The notes under the pieces are model-generated. The model saw only the letters and a list, made by a program, of their open reading frames with translations, searched no databases and had not been told where the DNA came from. From the NCBI GenBank assembly GCA_947306425.1, contig CAMZGO010000001.1:124001-188000 (forward strand): a stretch of 64,000 nt of DNA, written 5' to 3'. Shown here one piece after another: positions 2,984 to 57,802 of the stretch. The translations under genes were made by a program, and so were the position numbers. How positions within the stretch are numbered: position 1 is the stretch's first letter; each line of letters opens with the position of its first letter. This DNA is from an uncultured Elusimicrobia bacterium (lineage in GTDB: Bacteria; Elusimicrobiota; Elusimicrobia; Elusimicrobiales; Elusimicrobiaceae).

Positions 2984-3562
2984 TTATTTAGAAATGGTCC
3001 CTTTTCTGAAAGGGAAACCCATTAAGTCCATTAAAATTTGCCCTGCTTTATTATTTTTAGCAGTAGTAACAAATGTAATGTTCATGCCTTGCGGTTTTGG
3101 TGATTTTTCAACATTGATTTCCGGGAACACATAATGTTCTTTGATACCAACGTTCAAATTCCCTCTGCCGTCAAAACCACGTCCATTAAAACCCTGAAAG
3201 TCGCGGATACGAGGGGCAACAATATTTACGAATCTATCAAAAAATTCATACATTCTGTCACCGCGCAAAGTTACTCTTACACCGATTGGCATACCTTCCC
3301 TAAGTTTAAAGTTAGAGATAGATTTTTTAGCACGCCTGATTTGGGCTGCTTGGCCTGTAATGGCTGTAAGGTCTTCCTTAGCAATATCAATAAATTTGAT
3401 ATCTTCGCGAGCATCAGCAACACCGATATTGATAACAATCTTTTCAAGTTTAGGTGCTGCCATCGGGCTTTTAACTTTAAGTTCCTTCATCAAAGAAGGA
3501 AGGACTTGTTCTTTATAAAGGGTCTTATATCTTGGTGTATAATTTTCTGTTTTATTTGTCAT
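2984..3562 (-). CDS. rplE: 50S ribosomal protein L5
   Basis: L5 contacts 5S rRNA and the P-site tRNA. The 192 aa include a short N-terminal extension (MTNKTENYTP) before the normal RYKTLYKEQVLPSLMKE start. Diagnostic segments are LEKIVINIGVADA, QAAQIRRAKKSISNFKLREG and the C-terminal VTTAKNNKAGQILMDLMGFPF. It follows rplX by 9 nt in canonical order. Confidence 0.97.
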   Translation of the reverse strand: MTNKTENYTPRYKTLYKEQVLPSLMKELKVKSPMAAPKLEKIVINIGVADAREDIKFIDIAKEDLTAITGQAAQIRRAKKSISNFKLREGMPIGVRVTLRGDRMYEFFDRFVNIVAPRIRDFQGFNGRGFDGRGNLNVGIKEHYVFPEINVEKSPKPQGMNITFVTTAKNNKAGQILMDLMGFPFRKGTISK

Positions 3563-3571
3563 AATATCCTC

Positions 3572-3877
3572 TTATAAAGCAGCCCCGCATTTGGAGCAAA
3601 CTCTGGTAACAACACCCTTGTCATTAGTTTTGGTTTTAGGTGTCATGTGTTTATTGCATTTTGCACAAACAACCGCAACATTGGAAGCATCAATAGGGGC
3701 TTCCATTTGCTTAATGCCGCCTTTGTCATTTTGACTGGGTTTCGTGTGTTTGGAAATCATATTTATACCTGTAACAACAACTTTATTTTTAGAAGGTATA
3801 ATTTCACGAATTTCACCTGTCTTGCCTTTATCCTTACCGGCTAAAACAATAATTTTATCGTTCTTTTTAAGTTTCAT
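3572..3877 (-). CDS. rplX: 50S ribosomal protein L24 with C-terminal zinc ribbon
   Basis: L24 starts 50S assembly. I chose the ATG at 3877 (MKLKKNDKIIVLAGKDKG), giving 101 aa. A GGAGG Shine-Dalgarno lies 9 nt upstream, inside the last codons of rplN, and the ATG begins one base after the rplN stop. The KOW motif (IIVLAGKDKGKTG) is followed by a C-terminal CxxC...CxxC pair (CAKC and CSKC), a zinc ribbon found in many bacterial L24 proteins. The frame is open for seven more codons upstream, but those lie inside rplN. Confidence 0.96.
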   Translation of the reverse strand: MKLKKNDKIIVLAGKDKGKTGEIREIIPSKNKVVVTGINMISKHTKPSQNDKGGIKQMEAPIDASNVAVVCAKCNKHMTPKTKTNDKGVVTRVCSKCGAAL

Positions 3878-15827: not shown

Positions 15828-15858
15828 TTGACAACGTTTTTTTTTTTTTTTCTACAAT
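15828..15858 (+). promoter_or_regulatory. Pilin promoter with T15 tract in its spacer
   Basis: TTGACA (15828-15833) and TACAAT (15853-15858) are separated by 19 nt, of which 15 are an uninterrupted T run (15837-15851). An inverted repeat, GGGGTtaaatTACCCC (15811-15826), abuts the -35. The same design occurs before the pilins at 35229 and 57302. Confidence 0.65.
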
Positions 15859-15913: not shown

Positions 15914-16363
15914 ATGAATAAAAAAGGTTTTACTTTACTTGAACTTTTAGTTGTAGTTTTAATTATCGGTATACTTGCAGCTATTGCTTTACCGCAATAT
16001 AAAAAGGCAGTATTAAAAAGCAAATTTGCCACAATTAAAGATAAAACCCGTGCAATTTATGAGGCCGAACAAAGATATTATTTAGTAAATGATAGATATA
16101 CAACAAATTGGAATGACCTTGATATAAAAGTTAATAACAATAATTGTACTATTAATGCTCCATACAGTTATATTTTATGTTCATTAACAGATAAACAAAA
16201 CAAAGTTATATTACAATACTTAGTTATACCACAAACACAACAAAGAAGATGTGATGCTTGGCCCGGAGACAGAAATTCTTTAACAAATCAAATATGTCAA
16301 ATAGAAACAGGGAAAAATACACCATATCAACAATGTGGTACCTATTGTATGTATTATTACTAA
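15914..16363 (+). CDS. Type IV pilin-like protein
   Basis: A 149-aa pilin/pseudopilin. A four-residue leader with KKG precedes the processing site before Phe, then comes TLLELLVVVLIIGILAAIALPQY, with the conserved Glu at mature position 5. Four Cys in the second half could form disulfides. A Shine-Dalgarno (GGAGA) lies upstream. It stands alone, with no pilus-assembly genes nearby. Three paralogs sit elsewhere in the window (35229, 52300, 57302) and share the N-terminal half and promoter type. Structural pilin or minor pseudopilin cannot be decided. Confidence 0.9.
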   Translation: MNKKGFTLLELLVVVLIIGILAAIALPQYKKAVLKSKFATIKDKTRAIYEAEQRYYLVNDRYTTNWNDLDIKVNNNNCTINAPYSYILCSLTDKQNKVILQYLVIPQTQQRRCDAWPGDRNSLTNQICQIETGKNTPYQQCGTYCMYYY

Positions 16364-25559: not shown

Positions 25560-25690
25560 TTTTTTACATTACACGCTAGTACGCGCAGAACGTGCTTGCA
25601 GCGCGAATACATACACATGCGCTATGGTTTTACACTCGTGGGGCATCGCAGAAAAAATTAAAATTTCCTCAAAAAACTTGCCGAGTGTGG
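25560..25690. repeat. Mosaic intergenic repeat, divergent copy
   Basis: The spacer between the atp operon and the TPR gene has a stretch rich in GCGC/CGCG that shares modules with 58065-58145 in inverted orientation: TTTTTGAGGAAATTT, then AATTTTT and CTGCGA, then AACCrTAGCGC and TTCGCGCTGC. It is non-coding and much richer in CpG than the surrounding DNA. Confidence 0.55.
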
Positions 25691-25714
25691 ACACTTGGTT
25701 TGGCTTTTTTTAAC

Positions 25715-26116
25715 TTATTTTCCGGTTAAGATTCTTTTGAGGTTTAAAATTGTTTCGTCTTTTGGGGATAGTTTTAATATTGCTTTGCAGTCTGATATGG
25801 CTTTTTCCATTTCCTTTATTCGCATATAAAAATATAATCTATCAATATAATTGTTGATATTGTTTTTATCTTTGTTTATTGCTTTAGTATAATAAAATTC
25901 TGCTTCCCTGTTGAAACCTATTTCTTCGCATATCGTTGCTATATTTTGGCAAGCATAATACCCCTCTAATGTCTTTTTAAAATCTTCAACCGCTTTTTCA
26001 TATTCCTTAATTTCACAATATAATTTTGCCCTTTCAATATGAAATTCTTTTATATCTGGGTATTTGTCTATCATTTCACTAAATTCTTTTATTCTTTCTT
26101 TGATACTATCTGCCAT
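25715..26116 (-). CDS. Small TPR-repeat protein A
   Basis: A 133-aa soluble, helical protein with tetratricopeptide-like repeats: KYPDIKEFHIERAKLYCEIK, the segment with EIGFNREAEFYYTKAI, and NYIDRLYFYMRIKEMEKAI. It has no signal peptide and no catalytic domain. A GAGGG Shine-Dalgarno lies 8 nt before the ATG. A clear paralog is at 49129-49560 (same IKEF, YPD, RAKLY, YxKAI and YFYMR landmarks). Both follow a structured RNA with its own terminator. TPRs bind proteins or RNA; the partner is unknown. Confidence 0.8.
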   Translation of the reverse strand: MADSIKERIKEFSEMIDKYPDIKEFHIERAKLYCEIKEYEKAVEDFKKTLEGYYACQNIATICEEIGFNREAEFYYTKAINKDKNNINNYIDRLYFYMRIKEMEKAISDCKAILKLSPKDETILNLKRILTGK

Positions 26117-26146
26117 AAATTTGCCCTCACCATTAAAAATTTTTCC

Positions 26147-26353
26147 AATAAAAAACGGCTGTTAATACTATGGATTGAAGGTCATAGTAAAACAGCCGCA
26201 TTTTGCCGTTCAAAAGAACGGCAAAATTGACACGACTGTTTTTTAGGCCTTCAATCCTTTTGCTTTTGCAAAAGACAATCCTGTAAAGGATTACCCAAAA
26301 AAACATTTAAATCTTTATAGGGTTTTTAACCCTACATTAAAATAAAACTCCTT
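26147..26353 (-). ncRNA. Structured RNA element A upstream of the TPR gene
   Basis: An RNA of about 207 nt can be read on the minus strand. In order it has AAGGAG at its 5' end; hairpin TAGGGTT/AACCCTA (26318-26334); helix UUUUUU-GG/CC-AAAAAA (26294-26303 with 26239-26247) enclosing hairpin AATCCT/AGGATT; helix ACAGUCG/CGGCUGU (26233-26239 with 26192-26198) enclosing a 12-bp hairpin (26200-26227); and a terminator stem CGGCUGUU/AACAGCCG plus a 7-bp inner stem, then UUUUUU. The terminator loop (26172-26181) is exactly complementary to 26248-26257. CGGCUGU can pair either upstream or with the terminator arm. A second copy with the same topology is at 49575-49797. Confidence 0.75.
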
Positions 26354-26358
26354 AACTT

Positions 26359-26364
26359 ATTATA
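26359..26364 (-). promoter_or_regulatory. Extended -10 promoter of RNA element A
   Basis: TGTTATAAT on the minus strand is a perfect extended -10 (TGnTATAAT), 8 nt beyond the guaC stop. No good -35 is seen, which extended -10 promoters can tolerate. The predicted start is at or next to the AAGGAG that opens the RNA. Confidence 0.6.
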
Positions 26365-32800: not shown

Positions 32801-33487
32801 TTAGGCGTTTAGTTTAGTTACATCAACGTGAATACCTAAACCCATCGTGGAGGACATTGAAACGGTTTTCATATAAGTCCCTTTAGATGTGGATGGTTTC
32901 ACCTTTAAAATAGTATCTATAACAGCTTTTGCATTCTCATAGATTTTATTTGCATCAAATGATGCTTTCCCGACAGGAACATGAACTATGCCGTAAGAAT
33001 CGGCTTTAAATTCTATCCTGCCTGCCTTAAGTTCAGCAACTGCTTTTGCAACCTCAAAAGTAACTGTCCCTGCTTTCGGATTTGGCATCAAACCGCGCGG
33101 GCCGAGTATTTTGGCTGCTTTTGCCAAGTCACGCATTACATCGGGGGTAGCGACTAAGACATCAAAGTCAATTTTGCCTTTTGTGATATCTTCAACTAAA
33201 TCATCCCCGCCGACCAAATCAGCCCCTGCTTTTTGGGCTTCTTGGGCGTGTTCGCCTTTAGCCAAGACAGCTATTCTTTTGGTTTTACCTGTACCGTTAG
33301 GTAAAACAACCATAGCACGCACTTGCTGATCTGATTTTTTGGTATCTATCCCCAAACGAACGTGGAGTTCTACCGTTTCATCAAATTTTGCTTTTGCGTT
33401 GTCTTTGCACAAAGCGGAGGCCTCTTTCAAGGTATACAGTTTTTTGGAATCTATGTTCTCTTTAGCTGCTTTTAATCTTTTTCCCAT
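32801..33487 (-). CDS. rplA: 50S ribosomal protein L1
   Basis: L1 forms the mobile L1 stalk at the E site and in many bacteria represses its own operon. The 228-aa sequence has KFDETVELHVRLGIDTKKSDQ, PNGTGKTKRIAVLA and ILGPRGLMPNPKAGT, all diagnostic. It follows rplK by 47 nt and is followed by a strong terminator instead of rplJ. Confidence 0.97.
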   Translation of the reverse strand: MGKRLKAAKENIDSKKLYTLKEASALCKDNAKAKFDETVELHVRLGIDTKKSDQQVRAMVVLPNGTGKTKRIAVLAKGEHAQEAQKAGADLVGGDDLVEDITKGKIDFDVLVATPDVMRDLAKAAKILGPRGLMPNPKAGTVTFEVAKAVAELKAGRIEFKADSYGIVHVPVGKASFDANKIYENAKAVIDTILKVKPSTSKGTYMKTVSMSSTMGLGIHVDVTKLNA

Positions 33488-35228: not shown

Positions 35229-35693
35229 TTATCTATAATGATAGGACTTATAAGAATAAGCATCATTAGGGGTAGTTCTGCCTGTTTCATTTTGGCAAAT
35301 TTTGTTAGCTATTATATTTGTAATATTCGTTCCAATTAAACATGCTTGAACAGAATTCCTTGAGCCATAACCAAGTGAGAATTCCATTCTACTCCCTGAA
35401 ATTTCTTTAAAACACTTAATCAACGGATTACTTGTTGGAAGAATTTCACAACTTGACCTTATTTCCACATCCAAGTTATTTATGTTTTGCGTATAACTGT
35501 CATTTAATAAATAGTATCTGTTTAGAGCATTTTTTATAGAATGGGCATCAATCTTTAGTTGAGCAAATTTCGATCTGCCAACAACTACTTGATATTGCGG
35601 AATGGCAACAGCTGCAATTATACCGATAATTAAAACCACTACTAACAATTCAATTAAAGTAAAACCTTTGTCTGCATTTTTTATTTTGTCCAT
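35229..35693 (-). CDS. Type IV pilin-like protein
   Basis: A 154-aa pilin/pseudopilin: leader ending DKG before Phe, then TLIELLVVVLIIGIIAAVAIPQY with Glu5. The globular part has three Cys, all in its second half. It is transcribed alone from a promoter with a T15 spacer. The N-terminal half, the promoter and the AGGAGA leader closely match the copy at 57302, whereas the C-terminal domains differ, as expected for a diversified pilin family. Confidence 0.9.
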   Translation of the reverse strand: MDKIKNADKGFTLIELLVVVLIIGIIAAVAIPQYQVVVGRSKFAQLKIDAHSIKNALNRYYLLNDSYTQNINNLDVEIRSSCEILPTSNPLIKCFKEISGSRMEFSLGYGSRNSVQACLIGTNITNIIANKICQNETGRTTPNDAYSYKSYHYR

Positions 35694-35742: not shown

Positions 35743-35774
35743 ATTGTACAAAAAAAAAAAAAAACGGCTGTCAA
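35743..35774 (-). promoter_or_regulatory. Pilin promoter with T15 tract in its spacer
   Basis: On the minus strand TTGACA (35774-35769) and TACAAT (35748-35743) enclose a 20-nt spacer, GCCG-T15-G. The upstream sequence TTAAAATAGGTC is the same as at the 57302 pilin promoter. Confidence 0.65.
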
Positions 35775-49128: not shown

Positions 49129-49560
49129 TTAAGGTTTATTGTTACTAATTACATTGTTGGAAACAGAAAACACACTCAATTTTTTAATTAATATTTCCGT
49201 AAGTGTTTTTTGTGGGGAAATTTCTAAGCAAGTTTTAAAATCGGAAAAGGCTTTTTCATTCCTTTTGGTGCGCATATAAAAATATGCTCTGCGTAAATAG
49301 TTTCCAGAATTATTTTTATCTAAGTTTATTGCTTTGTTATAAAGTTGTTCTGCTTCTACAATCAAATTGTTCCTTTCACATATATCTGCTATATCATTGG
49401 AAATATAACCTGTGTATACTTTTTCATAATCATTAAAGGCTTTTTTATATTGTTTAATTTTCCCGTATAATTTAGCCCTGCCTAGATATAACTCCTTCAT
49501 ATCGGGATATTTTTTTATTAGTTTATTAAACTCTTTTATTTTCTCTTTAACATTTTCCAT
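49129..49560 (-). CDS. Small TPR-repeat protein B
   Basis: A 143-aa paralog of the 25715-26116 protein. It shares KEKIKEFNKLIKKYPDMKE, RAKLYGKIKQYKKA, AEQLYNKAINLDKNN and AYFYMRTKRNEKA, all TPR-like helices, then has a short unrelated C-terminal tail. I chose ATG 49560; the longer frame start lies inside the upstream terminator hairpin. No Shine-Dalgarno is evident, which contrasts with copy A. It follows structured RNA element B by about 15 nt. Confidence 0.78.
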   Translation of the reverse strand: MENVKEKIKEFNKLIKKYPDMKELYLGRAKLYGKIKQYKKAFNDYEKVYTGYISNDIADICERNNLIVEAEQLYNKAINLDKNNSGNYLRRAYFYMRTKRNEKAFSDFKTCLEISPQKTLTEILIKKLSVFSVSNNVISNNKP

Positions 49561-49574
49561 AAGTAAAATTTTAC

Positions 49575-49797
49575 AATAAAAAACGGCTCTTATAAGAGCC
49601 AGAAACATAACCCGTATAACAGCCGTGGTTTACCAATAATGGCAAACGCTCGGCATAAAACATCACGTGTTCGTTTTATGCCTTAACCGACTGTATTTGG
49701 TTGTTTCTGTGCTTTCTATGCTGCCGTATGAACGGCGACCAAAAACAGGCAAATTGTCTTAGGGCTTTTAACCCAGCATTAACAACAAAACTCCTTT
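49575..49797 (-). ncRNA. Structured RNA element B upstream of the TPR gene
   Basis: About 220 nt with the same architecture as element A. It has AAGGAG at the 5' end; hairpin GGGUUAAAAGCCC; helix UUUGGU/ACCAAA (49738-49743 with 49696-49701) enclosing hairpin GCCGU/ACGGC; helix ACAGUCG/CGGCUGU (49688-49694 with 49619-49625) enclosing a 10-bp hairpin (49652-49682) and an 8-bp hairpin (49628-49647). The terminator is GGCUCUUAUAAGAGCC then UUUUUU. CGGCUGUUAUA can also pair with UAUAAGAGCCG at 10 of 11 positions. The loop segment 49600-49607 is exactly complementary to 49702-49709. Confidence 0.75.
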
Positions 49798-49803
49798 TCT
49801 TTT

Positions 49804-49832
49804 ATTATATTGAATTTTTCTATTCACTGCAA
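49804..49832 (-). promoter_or_regulatory. Promoter of RNA element B
   Basis: On the minus strand TTGCAG (49832-49827), a 17-nt spacer and a perfect TATAAT (49809-49804). The predicted start is at or next to the AAGGAG that opens element B, the same geometry as for element A. The rest of the gap up to thyX (49833-49954) shows only AT-rich sequence with a TACAAT near 49919 that may serve thyX. Confidence 0.7.
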
Positions 49833-57218: not shown

Positions 57219-57250
57219 TTGACAGATGTTTTTTTTTTTTTTTGTATAAT
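57219..57250 (+). promoter_or_regulatory. Pilin promoter with T15 tract in its spacer
   Basis: TTGACA (57219-57224) and TATAAT (57245-57250) with a 20-nt spacer, GATG-T15-G. The upstream TTAAAATAGGTC matches the 35229 pilin promoter exactly, and a GGGGGGTTAAA stretch resembles the 15914 promoter. Confidence 0.65.
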
Positions 57251-57301: not shown

Positions 57302-57802
57302 ATGAAAGAAATAAAAAATAGCAGTCAAGGTTTTACTTTACTTGAGTTGTTGGTAGTAGTTTTAATTATCGGTATACTTGCAGCTATTGCTTTGCCGCAA
57401 TATAAAAACGCACGCGATAAGGCTGTTATATCCGCTTTTTTACCTATGATTAATGCCATTAAAGAGGCTGAAGAAGTTTATTTTATGACGCATGGGGAGT
57501 ATGCAAGAAATTTAGAAACTTTAGATATAGATGTAACAAAAGACGGTTCTTGTTCAAAATATCACAATATGATGTTTTGCAAAAAAGAATATATAAATTT
57601 ATCATATAATGGATCAACTCTAACAGGGGCTCTTTCTTTTTTTTATTGCCCTTCTTTTACAGAAAAAATGGACGTATATAATTACTCTTCTTGCGCTTCT
57701 ACAAAATTAGTAAAGGCAACTATTTATTTATCTAATCATTCCACAAAACCAAATAGAGTTGAATGTTCCGGTCCAAGTAAACTTTGTGAGATGTTTACAT
57801 AA
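57302..57802 (+). CDS. Type IV pilin-like protein
   Basis: A 166-aa pilin/pseudopilin: leader ending SSQG before Phe, TLLELLVVVLIIGILAAIALPQY with Glu5, then a globular part with six Cys. A leader palindrome (GCTTTATAAAGC) and AGGAGA precede the ATG. Only the N-terminal ~50 residues are closely similar to the other three pilins, which differ in the globular domain. Confidence 0.9.
   Translation: MKEIKNSSQGFTLLELLVVVLIIGILAAIALPQYKNARDKAVISAFLPMINAIKEAEEVYFMTHGEYARNLETLDIDVTKDGSCSKYHNMMFCKKEYINLSYNGSTLTGALSFFYCPSFTEKMDVYNYSSCASTKLVKATIYLSNHSTKPNRVECSGPSKLCEMFT

Follow-up and report, generated by a model that had tools for sequence, protein, structure and literature searches.

A family of structured leader RNAs, probably conditional transcription terminators, ahead of pilin, surface and DNA-modification genes in Elusimicrobiota

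Two structured RNAs that precede paralogous TPR genes in the window (the whole stretch analysed, 64,000 nt of the genome of an uncultured Elusimicrobia bacterium) turned out to belong to a large family of RNAs of ~205–265 nt. We consider it probable that this is a new family of leader RNA in which each copy is a cis-acting attenuator, a conditional terminator of transcription that would give on/off control of surface and DNA-modification genes. This large and heavily structured leader class seems to have been overlooked because it is restricted to gut Elusimicrobiota. It links one RNA device to the classic phase-variable repertoire of pili, surface sugars, outer-membrane proteins and restriction-modification.

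The two copies in the window, A and B, have the following parts.

26359..26364, minus strand: -10 element TATAAT of copy A (extended -10, TTGTTATAAT), read from the sequence, with a placement common to other copies
26151..26353, minus strand: RNA leader copy A (covariance-model match 133.5 bits, E 3e-28; fold z -7.8)
26348..26353, minus strand: 5' AAGGAG, predicted start of RNA A; AAGGAG/AGAGG is conserved at the 5' ends of relatives
26318..26334, minus strand: P1 hairpin UAGGG...CCCUA of copy A, a covarying helix
26295..26304, minus strand: P2 5' strand of copy A, from P2 covariation
26248..26257, minus strand: X of copy A, private pseudoknot strand GGATTGAAGG, a perfect 10-bp complement to Y
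26236..26247, minus strand: P2 3' strand of copy A; its ACAG overlaps the P5 5' strand and covaries with both partners
26239-26233, minus strand: P5 5' strand ACAGTCG of copy A, with ACAG common to the P2 3' strand
26192..26198, minus strand: CGGCTGT of copy A, both P5 3' strand and terminator 5' strand (T1), from covariation
26172..26181, minus strand: Y of copy A, private pseudoknot strand CCTTCAATCC inside the terminator loop, complement to X
26150..26162, minus strand: terminator 3' strand ACAGCCG and U run of copy A, from the sequence; kept in all aligned copies
25715..26116, minus strand: TPR gene A, 133 aa (Pfam TPR_2, E 1.2e-9)
49804..49809, minus strand: -10 element TATAAT of copy B, from the sequence
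49579..49796, minus strand: RNA leader copy B (covariance-model match 151.7 bits, E 2e-32; fold z -5.0)
49702..49709, minus strand: X of copy B, CAGAAACA, from X:Y complementarity
49619..49625, minus strand: CGGCTGT of copy B, P5 3' strand/terminator 5' strand, from sequence and alignment
49600..49607, minus strand: Y of copy B, TGTTTCTG, from X:Y complementarity
49129..49560, minus strand: TPR gene B, 143 aa (Pfam TPR_2, E 2.5e-10)

In both copies TATAAT lies 5–7 nt upstream of the conserved AAGGAG, and a hairpin followed by a U run ends the RNA 20–35 nt upstream of the TPR ORF. None of 200 dinucleotide shuffles folded as well as A (z -7.8) or B (z -5.0). A preliminary description had placed a structured RNA with its own promoter and terminator ahead of each TPR gene, and the sequence, the fold z scores and the covariance-model matches bear this out, A and B being themselves among the 25 relatives from which the model was built. 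It had also given both copies the same order of helices, which holds for the helices they share and fails for P6, missing from copy A. An intergenic repeat (GAGGAAATTTTAATTTTTTC...GCGCTGCAAGCACG), present at ~25570-25720 of the window, is found again, in one orientation or the other, close to several RNA copies, including upstream of the RNAs at L040 and L052.

Nearly all relatives of TPR protein A in the source genome and in genomes of the same genus were found to have a similar RNA in front. An alignment of 25 sequences was made into a covariance model, with which the source genome and 295 Elusimicrobiota genomes were searched. In the 1.44-Mb source genome the search returned 46 copies of ≥50 bits together with weaker pieces, dozens of the copies lying outside the training set of the model. 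This number, like the other genome-wide counts, is a lower bound, as contig C8 (66 kb) consists of N throughout and the search did not extend to ~13 kb of contig ends. The "twin" modules of the preliminary description are thus two among ~46 strong copies, and the covariance-model search of Elusimicrobiota that it had proposed yielded many homologues with compensatory changes.

At E ≤ 0.001, with E-values that are rough, a match was present in 83 of the 295 genomes and in 7 of 90 genera. The matching taxa are two genera of Elusimicrobiaceae and family f15, plus a marginal one in f23 (E 9e-4). Family f15 fits gut Endomicrobia lineages, and the available sequences suggest that the RNA is confined to gut Elusimicrobiaceae and Endomicrobia; Candidatus Avelusimicrobium and Candidatus Ruminimicrobiellum are among the named records that contain it. 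Genomes of the family have between 0 and tens of copies, those of the genus between 2 and at least 35. A wider sample of contigs was selected by the P2 pattern, which biases P2 conservation there, and its figures hold among the matches listed. None of the 21 pattern hits on viral contigs scored with the covariance model, nor did any pattern hit named as another phylum, and direct searches of phage and plasmid records gave no match; these results speak against a phage or plasmid origin of the RNA. With Rfam 15, neither window segment matched at the gathering threshold, nor did the RNAs from six further loci at E ≤ 1, and the T-box covariance model was likewise unmatched. The open-access literature yielded no paper that describes such an RNA, nor any about pilin RNAs of Elusimicrobiota. 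The absence of an Rfam match agrees with the earlier suggestion of an undescribed RNA class.

From 5' to 3' the element consists of an extended -10, AGGAG/AGAGG, P1, P2, X, P5 and the terminator. P2 encloses hairpins P3 and P4, the latter with a GNNA loop, and P5 closes a three-way junction with P6 and P7. X pairs with Y in the terminator loop, forming a pseudoknot of 8–13 mostly perfect pairs (~10 bp) located 0–2 nt before CCAAAAA in most copies. The joining segments are conserved (J5/6 UUUA, J6/7 GA/GAAU), L6 loops come from a small recurrent set (G[AC]CUAAUUACC, CUGAUCCC, GAAGUCAUGAGC and UUAUAAU-type), and L7 is variable. P6 is lost in copy A and in L056 and is elsewhere of several unrelated-looking types; by inspection, P6 of some copies contains an AGUA/GAA loop-E-like element. 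A minimal AUG-UAG ORF after AGGAG, considered as a translation sensor, occurs in copy A and several others; it is not general, because some copies lack it or have it altered and still retain the P1 pairing.

P2, P5 and the terminator use common strands and so are mutually exclusive: ACAG is common to the P2 3' strand and the P5 5' strand, and CGGCUGU is common to P5 and the terminator. Covariation of P1, P2, P5, P7 and the terminator exceeded all 500 shuffles and all slid controls, which supports both alternative structures. One base of the shared strand formed 127 C-G, 9 U-A and 2 U-G combinations with its P5 partner (Fisher p 1e-12); the same base covaried more weakly with its P2 partner (p 0.014), and a terminator pair covaried as well (p 0.0017). 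When 146 RNAs were folded in silico in stages, P2 formed in 125 at the first stage; at the next, X:Y with P5 formed in 131 and P2 remained in 2; at full length the terminator formed in 107, and terminator with P2 in most. The folding was run without pseudoknots, so that P2 and X:Y were never scored together. Copy B was an exception in that its full-length minimum-energy fold retained P5 and X:Y, not the terminator. On sequence and computed folding alike, antiterminator and terminator are exclusive and share one strand, as in an attenuator.

We propose that transcription begins at AGGAG/AGAGG and that the strand X-CCAAAAACAGUCG would first pair with upstream CUGUUUUUGG (P2). After CGGCUGU and Y are made, X-CCAAAAACAGUCG could switch to them, and the resulting P5 and X:Y pseudoknot would close the P6/P7 three-way junction and block the terminator. 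Should the P2 state win, CGGCUGU would pair with ACAGCCG-UUUUU and transcription would halt before the gene. Read-through would then be set by whatever favours one fold, either a small molecule or protein at the conserved junction and loops, or a kinetic choice. From the sequences and the modelled folds we infer that termination occurs and that read-through is regulated.

One special case of the attenuator explanation is a riboswitch for a metabolite or signal, in which the P5/P6/P7 junction with its conserved joins and L6 would form the aptamer, the ligand would stabilise P5 (ON), and pilins, surface sugars and DNA modification would constitute one regulon. c-di-GMP riboswitches control pilins elsewhere. 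Conserved joining segments, restricted L6 loops and the GNNA loop of P4, next to a variable L7, speak for this case; however, P6 is dispensed with in two copies and its types look unrelated, copy number ranges from 0 to ~46 within the family, and the regulated genes have no common pathway. The breadth of the target set likewise counts against a metabolite riboswitch. We regard this case as plausible, if somewhat short of probable.

The census of downstream genes bears directly on what the attenuator would control. A same-strand gene lies downstream in ~142 of the 148 copies that have sequence behind them, and several of the remaining ~6 precede a 31-aa peptide or another short frame. The median gap from the RNA to a pilin start codon is 40 nt. 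In the source genome, 25 of the 46 strong copies precede a pilin-like (type IV) gene and 12 a TPR gene, and others precede LicD, glycosyltransferase 2, MptE-like, SNase and SNF2/PLD helicase genes, a zinc-ribbon protein, a 31-aa membrane peptide and further genes. In other species pilins are commonest, followed by GT2/GT8/GT9/GT1-4, pyruvyl transferase and beta-barrels; DNA-modification genes behind the RNA there encode EcoRI-type, D12 and type III methyltransferases and type IIG and HSDR-type restriction proteins, and further genes encode SNase, sulfatase and TRL. Pili, surface sugars, outer-membrane proteins and restriction-modification are phase variable in many bacteria.

The 31-aa peptides are single-helix membrane peptides ending in LIAKHDKN[IK]. 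At the following loci their genes come immediately after the RNA and have a good ribosome site.

L310: RNA 686-932
L328: RNA 852-1094
L193: RNA 3557-3789
Source genome, contig C12: RNA 33264-33450

This range of genes also argues against a trans-acting RNA, in which the terminated transcript of ~210–260 nt would be the product and would work with the TPR or another protein in a type III toxin-antitoxin or RNP-like manner. Such a role would suit the own promoter, strong terminator and heavy structure of the RNA and the small proteins behind some copies, but the downstream genes come from many unrelated families. Little promoter room is left between terminator and start codon in most copies (13–38 nt before TPR genes, with one exception), and the gene therefore probably needs read-through. 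The TPR proteins contain only TPR in Pfam and have no PADLOC match, no ToxN/CptN/TenpN-like protein was found, and the tandem repeats that mark type III antitoxins were seen, by inspection, in none of the 25 aligned RNAs. We regard a trans-acting product as improbable. The preliminary description had raised an RNA/TPR partnership, a type III toxin-antitoxin locus and a constant position ahead of TPR genes; with TPR genes behind only the 12 copies counted above and other accessory genes behind the rest, the census rejects all three. Its other suggestion, a regulatory leader in a promoter-RNA-terminator-gene layout, is the best reading of the element.

Comparison of the same positions across species points the same way. 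Between guaB and atpI (locus A), the RNA is accompanied by a TPR gene in the source genome and by a 31-aa membrane peptide in G004; both RNA and gene are missing from G011 and G002, where a terminator-like hairpin follows guaB instead. Between thyX and nadK (locus B), the RNA is followed by the TPR gene in the source genome, by the peptide in G004 and by a broken peptide frame in G003, and is absent from G011 and G002. Related species that keep an RNA at these positions have a peptide gene or its remnant in place of TPR, contrary to a partnership of the two. The private X:Y helices, here called barcodes, differ between positional copies with cis complementarity kept (by inspection). Units of RNA and gene, 1.4–1.8 kb long, sit amid unrelated flanks in different species, and a non-systematic search saw no transposase and no fixed ends on them.

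Such patchiness across species, with many copies, units at differing genomic places and presence in three genomes against absence in two at the compared positions, is also what a mobile or parasitic interspersed repeat of the BOX/RUP kind would produce, lying before genes by chance and without a regulatory role. Yet the element is nearly always on the same strand as, and just upstream of, a gene; it conserves a promoter, alternative helices and a terminator; and the non-systematic search showed neither the transposase nor the fixed ends of a mobile element. We give this explanation little chance.

The X:Y barcodes are hypervariable. X and Y were complementary in cis in 43 of 45 copies of the source genome, compared to 3.3% of mismatched X/Y pairs, and their sequence was different in every copy of that genome where it could be delimited. 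Between L196 and L276, which are 98.5% identical outside the barcode, 6 of the 10 barcode pairs differ; L206 and L073, for which the alignment used gives 94.8% outside the barcode, have 30% of it in common, and their P7 differs too. A barcode can thus change wholly, on both strands, across near-identical scaffolds. The RNA in front of an orthologous gene in different species often keeps its barcode, and in a few cases (L073/L086, G000_18/L268) two RNAs whose flanks are not similar have the same barcode; the barcode therefore tracks the RNA lineage, not the place. Neutral drift of a helix free in sequence may account for the more diverged barcode pairs; the L196/L276 pair argues for faster turnover. 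Two SNase copies, G000_36 and G000_38 (contigs C17 and C4), have near-identical 3' RNA halves, though their X strands are not the same; in G000_36, perhaps a recombinant or inactive copy, the usual complementarity appears to be lost.

Wholesale exchange of X:Y on near-identical scaffolds would suit a guide or address whose pairing partner is a target DNA, a different mRNA or an sRNA. However, cis complementarity is almost always retained. X/Y words showed no enrichment over 1.5 kb on the upstream side or 2.5 kb on the downstream side, except that their reverse complements were marginally in excess in the nearest 150 nt upstream, and they formed no clusters in other parts of the source genome. 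A guide function toward local or distant targets appears very improbable. Active avoidance of chance pairing in trans was rejected as well, as trans scores within the genome equalled those of shuffled sequences (10.8 versus 10.7). The barcodes are mutually different and otherwise untuned. It is unusual in evolution for a scaffold to stay nearly constant while its pseudoknot is private to each copy, and why dozens of copies per cell each differ is a testable question on cross-talk among paralogous RNA switches.

Other members of the pilin family in the source genome have a different upstream device, of which the window contains three cases.

15828..15858, plus strand: poly-T spacer promoter TTGACAACG-T15-CTACAAT, before pilin gene 15914-16363
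35743..35774, minus strand: poly-T spacer promoter (15-T tract), before pilin gene 35229-35693
57219..57250, plus strand: poly-T spacer promoter (15-T tract), before pilin gene 57302-57802

The genome contains ~99 pilin-like ORFs, as counted by a sequence motif, and the RNA lies within 450 nt of 27 of them when weaker RNA matches are included. Promoters of the form TTGAC-N-T(13-19)-TANAAT number 45, of which 42 precede pilin genes and 3 lie where a contig ends or unread sequence begins; the reversed pattern does not occur. Promoter spacers of 13–19 T are a hallmark of slipped-strand phase variation. The -35/-10 spacing is 14–16 or 19–23, never 17–18, and by the usual spacing rule most of these promoters would be off in the assembled state. 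On their sequence, the poly-T promoters make this very large pilin family a candidate for slipped-strand phase variation. No RNA locus in the source genome bears one, and the RNA lacks a homopolymer of the slipped-strand kind. Poly-T promoters are far fewer in most relatives, even in some that are rich in the RNA (none in G009), and the pairing of the two devices is therefore best seen in this genome.

A rather unlikely extension, which we offer tentatively, is that the attenuator is an on/off switch akin to phase variation. Each locus would be set independently through its private X:Y, the terminated leader possibly acting back on nascent transcripts from its own locus alone, and barcodes would differ so that the dozens of copies in a cell avoid cross-talk. 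The RNA would then have, at some of the pilin, sugar and DNA-modification genes, the role that poly-T promoters have at the other pilin genes.

Among known systems, terminator-type riboswitches and leader attenuators resemble the element most in plan, with their own promoter, exclusive antiterminator and terminator, U run and gene just behind; the RNA described here differs in having no Rfam family, in a terminator loop that pairs with a copy-private strand, and in occurring in up to ~46 copies per genome before functionally unrelated genes. Type III toxin-antitoxin loci share the promoter, structured RNA, terminator and small protein gene, but here a ToxN-type endoribonuclease is missing and the downstream genes are many and unrelated. 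Promoters of the slipped-strand phase-variable type stand before further genes of this pilin family in the source genome, and the gene classes behind the RNA are phase variable elsewhere; unlike those promoters, the RNA has no long homopolymer, and its control would act at termination, not initiation. The pneumococcal BOX, RUP and SPRITE elements are likewise structured and interspersed in many copies, and are thought to affect co-transcribed genes and to be probably parasitic (PMC3049150). In contrast to them, the RNA family described here keeps its promoter, its terminator, its orientation and its gene classes.
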